In this document: positions 59-4,911 of the stretch, one piece after another
How the letters are laid out: each line of letters starts with the position of its first letter
Numbering within the stretch: the stretch's first letter is position 1
Origin: Euzebyales bacterium
GTDB taxonomy: Bacteria; Actinomycetota; Nitriliruptoria; Euzebyales; Egibacteraceae
NCBI GenBank assembly: GCA_013695145.1
Contig: JACDBB010000217.1
Span: 1 to 61,101 of the forward strand
Reading direction: 5' to 3'
DNA: 61,101 nucleotides
Notes under the pieces: model-generated
Databases searched by the model: none
Seen by the model: only the letters and a program-made list of their open reading frames with translations
What the model was told of the DNA's origin: nothing
Position numbers and translations under genes: made by a program

Positions 59-89
59 TCGTCACCAGATCCGCCAGAGTCGTGGGCGG

Positions 90-1364
90 TCACCACAGCG
101 CCAGGTCACGGCTGGCGACCACCCTGGCCATGCGCGCCACGGCATCCGCGATCGGCACTGGCGCCAGCCGCCGGCCGTCGCGCAGTCGCAGGGCCACGGC
201 GCCGCCGCTGACCTCCCTGTCCCCGACCACCGCGATCCAGCACTCGCGCCGGTGCCGCGCGTCCCTGACCCGGGCGCCCAGGGTGCGGTCGGCCTGATCG
301 ACGTGCGCGCGCAGGTCCGCCGCTCGTGCCGCGTCGGCGACGCGGCCCGCGGCCGCCTCGTGCTCGGCCGCCACCGGCAGCACCACGAGCTGCCACGGCG
401 CCAGCCACGGCGGGAGCGCTCCGCGGTGGCGCTCCAGGAGGTGGGCGACCATCCGCTCCACGGTCGATGTGACGCTGCGGTGCAGCAGCACCGGACGATG
501 CGGCCGGCCATCCGCTCCGGTGTAGACCAGGTCGAAACGCTCCGGCAGCACGACATCGAGCTGGACGGTGGAGAGGGTCTCCTCGCGGCCCCTGTGGTCG
601 CGGACCTGCACGTCGATCTTCGGGCCGTAGAACGCCGCCTCGCCGACGGCCTCCTCGAACGGCACGCCCGCGTCGACGAGCACGGCCCGCAGCTGCGCCT
701 GGGTCCGCTACCACATCGCCGGTTCGTCCACGTACTTGCCGGACGGCCCCGCTCTCCCGGGAGTGTCGCGAAGCGACAGGCGGTAGCGGTGCCCGTCGAT
801 GCCCAGTGTGGCGTAGGCATCCTCGATCAGCTGGAGCATCAGGGCCGCCTCGGCCGGCACCTGCTCGGGGGCGCACAGCACGTGACCGTCGTTGAGCGTC
901 ATAGCGCGGACGCGGGACAGGCCGCCGACCACGCCGGAGCGCTCGTTGCGGTACATGGTGCCCAGCTCGGCGATGCGCACCGGAAGGTCCCGCCAGCTGT
1001 GCTGCAGCGCGGCGTAGACGAGCAGGTGGTGCGGGCAGTTCATCGGCCGGAGGACCACCTCCTCGTCACCGAGCCGCATGGGCGGGAACATGTCGTCGGC
1101 GTAGTGCGCCCAGTGACCCGACCGCTCGTACAGCTCACGCTTGGCGAGGGCTGGCGATCCGACGTGCTGGTAGCCGGCGTGCCGCTCCACGTCGAGGATG
1201 TAGCGCTCGAGCGCCGACCGGATGGCGGAGCCGGCTGGCAGCCACAGCGGGAGCCCGGCGCCCACCTGCGGGTGGGTGGTGAACAGCCCGAGCTGCCGGC
1301 CGAGCTGACGATGATCGTGCGGGTCAGGCGCTCCCGGCGCGTCGGGTGCGGTGGTGTCGCGCAT
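90..1364 (-). pseudogene. short threonyl-tRNA synthetase-like gene with in-frame amber codon
   Basis: Class II aminoacyl-tRNA synthetase core that would charge tRNA-Thr. It starts directly at the catalytic domain and lacks the N-terminal TGS and editing domains of normal ThrRS. Read through, it is about 424 codons. The zinc ligands are present: Cys in RPMNCPHH, His in LNDGHVLC and His in VLLHRSV. The motif 2 region (YRNERSGVVGGLSRVR) is divergent. The anticodon-binding domain begins at WLAPWQLVVLPV. The ATG at 1364 follows a clear AGGAGG. An in-frame TAG at 708-710 falls after KYVDEPAMW, exactly where the frame would continue as RTQAQLRA, so the gene is whole except for one codon. It is either a recent nonsense mutation (CAG to TAG fits), a sequencing error, or a readthrough site. 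A second, full-length thrS is expected elsewhere. Confidence 0.8.
708..710 (-). other. in-frame TAG codon inside the ThrRS-like gene
   Basis: The + strand reads cta here, so the gene strand has TAG. The frame on both sides is the same and both sides are clearly ThrRS. The position aligns with Asp in E. coli ThrRS (MWDRAEADL). TAG is a normal stop elsewhere in the window (ferredoxin, cysS, upp, phoU and others), so general amber recoding is unlikely. Confidence 0.85.
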
Positions 1365-1371
1365 GTGGTGG

Positions 1372-1387
1372 CCTCCTGGTCGGGAGG
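1372..1387 (-). promoter_or_regulatory. hairpin masking the ThrRS ribosome binding site
   Basis: On the gene strand CCTCC, a 6-nt loop and GGAGG form a perfect stem that includes the Shine-Dalgarno AGGAGG lying 7-8 nt before the ATG at 1364. Flanking GGCC bases can extend it. Folding would hide the ribosome binding site, which suggests control at translation as well as, or instead of, transcription. Confidence 0.5.
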
Positions 1388-1409
1388 TCCCGGCCCCGGA
1401 CGCGGCACA

Positions 1410-1459
1410 CACCACGACGCCCCGGGGCGGGACCCCGGGGCGGTGACGTCGGCGTGGTG
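1410..1459 (-). promoter_or_regulatory. attenuator-like hairpin in the ThrRS leader
   Basis: Immediately after the leader ORF stop, a 10-bp perfect stem (1418-1427 with 1433-1442, 5-nt loop) is nested inside a 7-bp outer stem (CACCACG at 1410-1416 with CGTGGTG at 1453-1459 on the + strand). No clear U-tract follows, as is usual in high-GC actinobacteria. The position between a Thr-rich leader ORF and the synthetase is that of an attenuator. The CGTCGT in its 3' arm could alternatively pair with the ACGACG of the Thr codon run. Confidence 0.55.
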
Positions 1460-1462
1460 CGG

Positions 1463-1528
1463 CTAGCGAACGCGACAGACCGCCGGGGGGAGCCCGGTGG
1501 TCGTCGTCGTGCTTCGCAAGCCTGCCAT
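1463..1528 (-). CDS. threonine-rich leader peptide of the ThrRS-like gene
   Basis: A 21-codon ORF (ATG at 1528, TAG at 1463-1465) has five consecutive threonine codons (ACG ACG ACG ACC ACC) at positions 7-11. It lies 98 nt upstream of the synthetase and is followed at once by nested hairpins. There is no Shine-Dalgarno. Instead a TATCGT box ends 7 nt before the ATG, the same layout as the leaderless starts of ispH, trkA and other genes here. The arrangement is that of ribosome-mediated attenuation, known in actinobacteria for amino-acid biosynthesis operons: scarcity of charged tRNA-Thr would stall the ribosome in the Thr run and change the fold. The function is inferred from layout only. Confidence 0.6.
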   Translation of the reverse strand: MAGLRSTTTTTGLPPAVCRVR

Positions 1529-1535
1529 CACTTAC

Positions 1536-1541
1536 ACGATA
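1536..1541 (-). promoter_or_regulatory. -10 box TATCGT of the Thr leader transcript
   Basis: TATCGT on the minus strand ends 7 nt before the leader ORF ATG, so transcription should begin at or within a base of that ATG. The first palindrome of the 40-bp repeat (from 1552) would lie near the -35 region. Confidence 0.5.
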
Positions 1542-2847: not shown

Positions 2848-2872
2848 CGTCTCATTGAGGAGGACCACCGCC

Positions 2873-3484
2873 GTGACGCAGCCTGCGGGCGACATCGAAC
2901 CTGCTCCGCTGGTGCCCCACCGTCCAGTTGCGCCAGACACGCACCCGCTCGAGCTGGAGCGCCTGGCCCTGCAGGAGCGCAGCCACCCTGACTGCGACCC
3001 CCTTCAGGTGCAGGCCACGATCTGGCTGTTCCGCGCTTACGGCGCCGCGGTGAACTCCCAGGCCGACGAGCTGCGCGTCCTCGGCCTCTCGCCGAGCGGG
3101 TTCAACGTGCTGATGGCGCTGCTGAACACCCCTGGGCACACCCTGGAGCCCTGCCAGCTGGCTGACCGGCTGCTGGTCAGCCGCCCGTCGGTCACCGGAC
3201 TCCTGGACACCCTCCAGTCCAAGGGGCTCGTCACCCGACGCCGGCACGGCGTGGACCGTAGGCGCGTGCTCGTCGAGCTGACCGACGCCGCCCACGGGGT
3301 GCTGTCGAGCCATTTTCCCATCCACTACCGCGAGCAGGCCGCCGTGTGGGATGAGTTGAGCCCCGACGAGCTCGGACAGCTCGTGTCCCTTCTGCGCCGC
3401 GTCCGCGGCGCGGTCCCCGCCCACTTGCACGACGAACGCGACCTCGGCGGATCGGGCGCGGGCGACGACCCGCGCACGGCCTGA
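2873..3484 (+). CDS. MarR-family transcriptional regulator
   Basis: DNA-binding regulator of 203 residues. After a Pro-rich N-terminal extension of about 40 residues, a helical dimerisation region leads to a winged helix-turn-helix (LEPCQLADRLLVSRPSVTG, about residues 90-110) and a basic wing (RRRHGVDRRRVLVELTD). GTG at 2873 was chosen because AGGAGG is 10 nt upstream. Its stop lies 8 nt before cysS, so the two are probably co-transcribed, which is unusual for a MarR regulator. Ligand and targets are unknown; members often respond to phenolics or oxidants. Confidence 0.85.
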   Translation: MTQPAGDIEPAPLVPHRPVAPDTHPLELERLALQERSHPDCDPLQVQATIWLFRAYGAAVNSQADELRVLGLSPSGFNVLMALLNTPGHTLEPCQLADRLLVSRPSVTGLLDTLQSKGLVTRRRHGVDRRRVLVELTDAAHGVLSSHFPIHYREQAAVWDELSPDELGQLVSLLRRVRGAVPAHLHDERDLGGSGAGDDPRTA

Positions 3485-3492
3485 GCCCGCCG

Positions 3493-4911
3493 GTGCTGAC
3501 CGTCACCAACACCCGGACCCGCTCCCGCCAGGAGCTGGTGCGACCTCGCGGCCGTCCACTCACGCTGTACGCCTGCGGCCCCACGGTCTACCGCACCGCG
3601 CACGTCGGCAACCTGCGGACCTTCCTGCTGGCCGACCTGGTCCGCCGTGCCCTGGCGAGCGAAGGCGTCGATGTGCGCGCCGTGCAGAACATCACCGACG
3701 TCGGCCACCTGGCCGGCGACACCCACGACGAGGGAGCGGACAAGGTGCAGCTGGCAGCCGAGGTCGAGGGTAGGTCGACCGAGGAGATCGCCGCCTTCTA
3801 CACCGAGCGCTACATGGCTGACGCCGATGCGCTGAACCTGCGGCGCTACGACGCCTACCCGCGCGCAACCGACCACATCGACGCGATGCTCGACCTGATC
3901 CGGCGGCTGGAGGCGGGCGGGTACGCCTACGACACCCGCGCGGCGGTGTACTTCGACGTGCGCCGCTTCCCCCGCTACGGGGCACTGTCCGGCAATCGCC
4001 TGGAGGACCTGCGGCCGGGCCACCGGTCGGGACGCACCGCTCCTGACAAGCGCTTCCACGCCGACTTCGCGCTGTGGCGCAAGGCGGGGCCGCGGCGGGG
4101 TGCGGCATGGGACTCCCCGTGGGGCCGGGGCTTCCCTGGGTGGCACATCGAGTGCTCGGCGATGGGCCTGGAGCTGCTCGGCGAGCGGATCGACGTGCAC
4201 CTTGGCGGCGTGGACCTGGCCTTCCCCCACCACGAGAGCGAGATCGCCCAGTCCGAGGCGGCGGTCGGGCACCGCGTGGTCGATGTCTGGATGCACGGCG
4301 CGCATGTGCTGTCCGACGGGCGCAAGATGGCCAAGTCGACCGGCAACGTGCTTGACGTGGCGGCGCTCCGGGAGGGGGGCCTGGACCCGCTGGCGTTCCG
4401 GCTGCTGTGCCTGCAGGCTCGCTACCGCACGCAGCTCAACGTGACCTGGGATGCGCTGGCTGGCGCCGACCGGAGCCTGGCTCGCCTGCGGCAGCGGGTC
4501 GGTGAGCTGTCCCGCGCCACCGACGACGCGACCGACCAGCAAGCGGCCGACGAGGTCGAGGCACGCTTCCTGGCTGCGGTCTGCGACGACCTCGACACGC
4601 CGACGGCGCTCCAGCTCGTGCATGAGGTGGCTGCCGGCGAGGGGTGCGCGGCGGAGCTGTCGCCCGGTGCCCGGGCGGCGTTGCTGCGGCGCTGCGACGC
4701 GATCCTGGGGCTCGACCTCGTCCGCGATCTCGATCGCGTGCACAGCGACGGCCCGCCGCTCCCGCCGGGCGCGCCCGAGCAGATGGCCAGCCGCGAGCGG
4801 GCGCGGGCGGCCAAGGAGTGGACCGCGGCGGACGAGCTCCGCACCGAGCTGTCCGCGCTGGGCGTCGACGTGATCGACACGCCCGACGGTCCCCGCTGGA
4901 CCCTCAGGTAG
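3493..4911 (+). CDS. cysS: cysteinyl-tRNA synthetase
   Basis: Class I synthetase that charges tRNA-Cys; 472 residues, normal length. The HIGH-type motif is HVGN (37-40) and the KMSKS motif is KMAKST (about 278). The four zinc ligands of the family are visible: Cys28 (YACGPTVY), Cys221 (WHIECSAM) and the HHESE segment near 246-250. NITDVGHL and HLGGVDLAFPHHE are CysRS signatures; MshC (the mycothiol ligase paralog) is excluded by the full C-terminal tRNA-binding region. It starts with GTG 8 nt after the MarR stop without a strong ribosome binding site, suggesting coupled translation. Confidence 0.95.
   Translation: MLTVTNTRTRSRQELVRPRGRPLTLYACGPTVYRTAHVGNLRTFLLADLVRRALASEGVDVRAVQNITDVGHLAGDTHDEGADKVQLAAEVEGRSTEEIAAFYTERYMADADALNLRRYDAYPRATDHIDAMLDLIRRLEAGGYAYDTRAAVYFDVRRFPRYGALSGNRLEDLRPGHRSGRTAPDKRFHADFALWRKAGPRRGAAWDSPWGRGFPGWHIECSAMGLELLGERIDVHLGGVDLAFPHHESEIAQSEAAVGHRVVDVWMHGAHVLSDGRKMAKSTGNVLDVAALREGGLDPLAFRLLCLQARYRTQLNVTWDALAGADRSLARLRQRVGELSRATDDATDQQAADEVEARFLAAVCDDLDTPTALQLVHEVAAGEGCAAELSPGARAALLRRCDAILGLDLVRDLDRVHSDGPPLPPGAPEQMASRERARAAKEWTAADELRTELSALGVDVIDTPDGPRWTLR

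Follow-up and report, generated by a model that had tools for sequence, protein, structure and literature searches.

A putatively leaderless leader ORF with a run of Thr codons and a set of alternative RNA helices precede a gene for a short, editing-less threonyl-tRNA synthetase (ThrRS) paralog in the window (the whole stretch of 61,101 nucleotides that was analysed). With a probability of roughly 80%, judging from comparison of the sequences, we regard this region as a classical ribosome-mediated attenuator through which the charging of tRNA-Thr is sensed and a backup ThrRS that lacks proofreading is controlled. New here are the breadth of the element over loci, its restriction to the editing-less paralog, and a helix predicted to release the Shine-Dalgarno (SD) sequence. 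No description of this conserved helix or of the restriction to the editing-less paralog was found in the open-licence PMC literature.

Leader ORF and ThrRS-like gene of the window

The leader, its promoter, and the ThrRS-like gene are located as follows.

1541-1536, minus strand: -10 box TATCGT of a putative leaderless promoter, with a gap of 7 nt to the leader ATG
1531, minus strand: GTG immediately 5' of the leader ATG, a less likely start (gap 4)
1528-1463, minus strand: leader ORF of 21 codons encoding the peptide MAGLRSTTTTTGLPPAVCRVR, a putative sensor present in all short-ThrRS loci with adequate upstream sequence; start ATG at 1528, stop TAG at 1465-1463
1510-1496, minus strand: five successive Thr codons, ACG ACG ACG ACC ACC
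87..1364, minus strand: short ThrRS paralog with a class II core and an anticodon-binding domain; ATG at 1364, interrupted by a TAG
710-708, minus strand: in-frame TAG in the short ThrRS gene

A preliminary description of this DNA had pointed out the 21-codon ORF, its five Thr codons, and TATCGT 7 nt before the ATG, and all of these are present on the minus strand. We shuffled the 330 nt 5' of the ThrRS-like gene 4000 times with dinucleotide composition preserved. An ORF with at least five successive Thr codons appeared in none of the shuffles and one with at least four in 0.1% of them, and the combination of at least three running Thr codons with a -10 box at 6-7 nt was also absent from all 4000. 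The background frequency of TANNNT upstream was 0.0004 per position. These shuffles and the conservation over 76 loci described below rule out a Thr run by chance. Between a ferredoxin gene and the leader promoter lie two inverted repeats about 43 bp apart (CGACACCGTGTCG and CGACACGGTGTC, at 1550-1563 and 1592-1605), which are mutually reverse complementary and thus could be an operator pair or form a hairpin.

The ThrRS-like gene scored 439 bits against TIGR00418 (threonine-tRNA ligase; curated cut-off, 383.65), with a match that spans only positions 171-561 of the 565 of the profile and contains one TAG; intact short homologs likewise exceed the cut-off. PF00587 and PF03129 were the sole domains found, the TGS and editing domains are absent, and the core starts about 14 residues past the start of the protein. 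The nearest solved structure was 1nyq, the ThrRS of Staphylococcus aureus. A full-length housekeeping thrS is located on another contig (C189) of the same genome, and the window gene is a second, short copy distinct from it. The preliminary description had correctly placed a ThrRS-like gene downstream of the leader and had not recognized it as a second copy that is short, lacks the editing domain, and is interrupted by an in-frame TAG. A second synthetase gene, for cysteinyl-tRNA synthetase (3493-4911, plus strand, GTG start), is found near the short ThrRS gene, directly 3' of a MarR-family regulator gene (2855-3484, plus strand).

At the position of the TAG, homologs have mostly Glu, Arg, or Ala, and the window gene carries a short insertion right before it. 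With a full-length thrS elsewhere in the genome and broken short copies in other genomes, the window locus might be a decaying pseudogene and its leader a functionless relic. We lean against this explanation, though not by far. The frame remains open downstream of the stop with 45-55% identity to homologs, both domains are detectable, and the leader, -10 box, and hairpins are undamaged. In addition, since the sequence comes from an assembly in 235 contigs, the TAG may be an assembly error or a polymorphism instead of a true lesion. If the TAG is real, the switch, itself intact, may control a gene whose product is broken or truncated. Stops were also observed in the short-ThrRS copies L012 (TGA) and G487 and G619 (TGA), so that loss of the short paralog may be frequent.

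The zinc-ligand motifs RPMNCPHH and LNDGH of the window enzyme look intact, and a Zn-responsive paralog of the kind known from Anabaena was therefore set aside. The first of these motifs reads RPSLCPHH in the short ThrRSs of Streptomyces (L040, 3944-5227) and Nonomuraea (L037, 3992-5173), compared with RPMNCPHH in the window copy and RPMNCPHH or KPMNCPGH in solved full-length enzymes. This change beside the zinc-ligand Cys is possibly an active-site change relevant to inhibitor resistance.

Distribution of the leader among ThrRS loci

Nonomuraea, Streptomyces, Micromonospora, a Euzebyaceae MAG from the family of the window itself, and many other Actinomycetota genomes contained short relatives, with about 50-69% identity over the N-terminal half. 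They occurred in 145 of 298 sampled Streptomycetaceae genomes, about half (the family name is inferred from the Streptomyces lividans-like genome G632). The short sequences form a single clade with a support of 100/100. Full-length ThrRSs of Marinococcus and Lacticaseibacillus (L042-L044, L049-L053) were also among the relatives, with 51-55% identity over the N-terminal half of the core, and are nearer in identity to the short form than is the housekeeping ThrRS of the window genome.

A leader ORF with two to five successive Thr codons at the same place was present in each of the 76 actinobacterial short-ThrRS loci whose upstream sequence was long enough. Each also had a TANNNT box 6-7 nt ahead of the leader start codon in a search that demanded a -10 box at 5-8 nt; when the box requirement was dropped, the same ORFs (runs of at least three Thr) with the same gap of 6-7 nt were recovered. 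Two loci were left out of the 76: L112, which has just 106 nt of contig 5' of the gene, and L060, which is without a leader but encodes a full-length ThrRS outside the short clade. The commonest leader peptides were of the type MKRAAMTTTPESVPAR. The comparison of orthologs proposed in the preliminary description thus yielded no short-ThrRS locus without a Thr-rich ORF among these 76.

None of 39 full-length ThrRS loci, a few of them with little upstream sequence, carried a Thr-run leader, which rules out the leader as a control of housekeeping thrS. Among the loci compared, the leader is confined to the editing-less short paralog. We also considered whether the leader is a small ORF for translation coupling or mRNA stabilization whose Thr run is no sensor, given that leaderless transcripts are frequent in actinobacteria (17% in S. 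lividans; PMC8079986). This is very improbable, because at 76 of 76 loci the run consists of the amino acid that corresponds to the enzyme, while much of the other peptide varies, and because the leader was found only at the paralog.

A relative of the window leader has been annotated in S. lividans TK24. There, thrL (SLIV_19412; peptide MKRVRPFLETTPGFVPAR) was reported in 2021 as a leaderless, TSS-mapped leader peptide upstream of thrS (SLIV_19410); the authors noted one hairpin and called termination unclear (PMC8079986). The mean spacing in the TSS data of that strain was 6.3 nt (PMC8079986), like the gap of 6-7 nt to the TANNNT box in 76 of 76 loci, and a leaderless start of the window ORF is probable. 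A transcript start 3' of the ORF, which the preliminary description had named as a refutation, is contradicted for this relative by its mapped TSS. The exact peptide MKRVRPFLETTPGFVPAR occurred once among the 298 searched genomes (family inferred, as above), in G632, about 125 nt 5' of a short-ThrRS match. The S. lividans peptide is a Thr leader of the MKR..TTP..VPAR type, and the window shares the architecture of such a leader 5' of a threonine-tRNA ligase gene, although the letters of the window peptide have diverged, its ORF has five Thr codons, and its target gene is interrupted. On the basis of these sequences, the window leader is a diverged member of the same family as thrL. The S. lividans report (PMC8079986) contains no comparative set, alternative helix, or mention of a short paralog as the target.

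Covariation and alternative pairings of the leader RNA

The helices and segments of the window leader are as follows.

1501-1479, minus strand: hairpin H1 (segments 1 and 2), -12.7 kcal/mol, inside the end of the leader ORF
1442-1418 (core), minus strand: hairpin H2 (segments 3 and 4), -29.4 to -33.3 kcal/mol, 3' of the leader stop
1436-1426, minus strand: segment 3b, comprising the loop of H2 and the end of its 5' arm, which pairs with segment 5 in an alternative helix
1395-1370, minus strand: hairpin H3 (segments 5 and 6, 5:6), -17.9 kcal/mol, pairing the SD AGGAGG at 1377-1372
1393-1382, minus strand: segment 5, CCGGGACCTCCC, with the SD (H3) or the H2 loop as alternative partners

The 5' arm of H1 lies at or just past the last Thr codons and its 3' arm in the final third of the leader ORF. 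The whole-leader fold had a z of -4.05 against dinucleotide shuffles, none of 200 of which folded equally well. In the alternative helix 3b:5, GGGGTCCCGCC pairs with the GGGACCTCC segment, whose other partner is the SD, with a duplex energy of -20.1 kcal/mol. The preliminary description had counted two hairpins, one of them hiding AGGAGG; the SD-pairing hairpin is H3, and the hairpins number three. In Firmicutes, ThrRS genes are usually under T-box control, but an Rfam scan returned no family at gathering score anywhere in the window, and control by a T-box or another Rfam-type riboswitch has a negligible probability.

We aligned 75 leaders (74 distinct rows) using MAFFT and scored covariation per base pair. 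The H2 pairs were paired in 92% of cases and gave 51 two-sided covariation cells against a shuffled maximum of 14, and the 3b:5 helix was 91% paired with 41 two-sided cells, compared with maxima of 17 in the shuffled and 15 in the slid controls; the cells are counts of sequences and not of independent events, and the Streptomyces rows include many close relatives. In Streptomyces, 3b:5 joins GGCGAGTG with CACTCGCC, that is, the H2 loop region with the 5' part of H3. Compensated 3b:5 pairs include CAAGT/ACTTG (L100), CGAAC/GTTCG (L107), and CGAGC/GCTCG (L083 and L090). When 3b:5 partners were swapped among 22 divergent loci, the mean energy was -20.0 kcal/mol for cognate vs -15.1 kcal/mol for mismatched partners. 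H2 and 3b:5 thus both covary, and they are mutually exclusive.

Covariation of the H3 outer stem was moderate (29 cells vs a shuffled maximum of 23), and that of the inner stem was no better than in shuffles of the alignment. This weakness is partly due to the near-fixed SD and loops of varying length; a hairpin that masks the SD is present in other loci too, with changed letters. The compensatory changes expected in the preliminary description are accordingly strong for H2 and 3b:5 and weak for H3. The alignment is uninformative on H1 because the segment is coding, and the pairing of segment 2 with segment 3 (2:3) showed little covariation beyond the coding constraint, with -18.2 kcal/mol for cognate vs -16.3 kcal/mol for swapped partners. 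In folds of the stalled state before segment 4 is transcribed, as in the alternative states envisaged earlier, 72 of 75 leaders showed a pairing of 5 bp or more between segment 2 and the 5' arm of H2, with a median z of -1.5 against dinucleotide-shuffled segment 2. Equilibrium folding fails as a proof of the switch: H2 persists in most stalled folds, and the ON state must therefore be kinetic.

H2 is a strong GC hairpin in the loci examined (-20 to -38 kcal/mol) with a poor U tract in most copies. The GC stem of the window copy is terminator-like and shows no clear U tract; in some other loci, H2 is followed by a T-rich tail (L013, CCTTTCTC; L047, CCTTTGTCG). The poor U tract and the conservation of both the SD-masking and the SD-releasing pairings would suit translational attenuation alone, in which the SD is masked by 5:6 and released by 3b:5 in an ermC-like manner and H2 is a spacer or a trap for segment 3. 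SD sequestration is likewise known from actinobacterial ileS, for which Seliverstov et al. (2005) described T-boxes with SD sequestors acting at the level of translation (PMC1262725). We consider control by translation alone unlikely, since H2 is far stabler than a translational switch requires and is placed as a terminator would be, with T-rich tails in L013 and L047.

Predicted switch and its precedents

The conserved Thr leader and the covariation of H2 and 3b:5 support the architecture of ribosome-mediated attenuation that had been proposed for this locus, and from it we infer ribosome stalling, termination of transcription, release of the SD, and the signal that induces the switch. The transcript would begin at the start codon of the leader itself, so that translation of the leaderless ORF would be initiated by a 70S ribosome. 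With ample Thr-tRNA, this ribosome would reach the leader stop, which lies just ahead of H2, and would therefore cover segment 2 while terminating; H2 (3:4) would then form and favor termination of transcription, and H3 would also mask the SD in this OFF state. When Thr-tRNA is short, because cells are starved of threonine or their housekeeping ThrRS is inhibited, the ribosome would stall on the Thr codons and mask segment 1, and segment 2 would be available for pairing with the 5' arm of H2 (2:3). In the ON state, the freed H2 loop would pair with segment 5 and release the SD, and 3b:5 would thus couple the loss of H2 to SD release.

A more far-reaching reading, which we consider somewhat less likely than not, is that a single stall acts at two levels, blocking termination through 2:3 and unmasking translation through 3b:5. 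Many soil Actinomycetota would then make an emergency ThrRS, which would resist ThrRS inhibitors or accept some Ser-for-Thr errors, only when tRNA-Thr charging fails.

An auxiliary synthetase gene attenuated at codons of its own amino acid has a precedent in trpRS1 of Streptomyces coelicolor, which is reportedly controlled by transcriptional attenuation at Trp codons and encodes a paralog said to have been tested as an indolmycin-resistance enzyme. The difference is that here the amino acid is Thr and the short ThrRS is a putative backup enzyme. Ribosome-mediated attenuation of trpRS1 was described by Vecchione and Sello (2010), as cited in PMC4787780. Leaderless short ORFs with poly-Cys runs serve as attenuation sensors in mycobacteria (Canestrari et al. 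2020, as cited in PMC9031893); these are likewise leaderless amino-acid-run sensors, but as summarized there they belong to cysteine-responsive operons and to no synthetase gene. In a survey of Actinobacteria, Seliverstov et al. (2005) proposed candidate trpS and leuS attenuators of Streptomyces, which likewise consist of a leader peptide, an antiterminator, and a terminator before synthetase genes; for threonine genes, their survey listed no conserved structure (PMC1262725). Thus, the novelty claimed in the preliminary description does not hold: S. lividans thrL-thrS, leaderless attenuators, and attenuation of auxiliary synthetases had all been reported before.

Anabaena likewise has a second, editing-impaired ThrRS, T2, which is produced when zinc is scarce and probably takes over under stress; its editing domain is retained in a degenerate form (PMC4787780). 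T2 has no leader-peptide control, and the actinobacterial short form differs from it in lacking the N-terminal domains altogether.

Through this comparison, thrL of S. lividans, annotated in a single genome, becomes one case of a regulatory element that is conserved in actinobacteria, has a testable fold, and is tied to one clade of short, editing-less ThrRSs. This also poses the question of how a proofreading-less synthetase is tolerated by cells. Should the backup enzyme be resistant to ThrRS inhibitors, in the way TrpRS1 is said to resist indolmycin, the leader would offer a ready-made sensor of these compounds.
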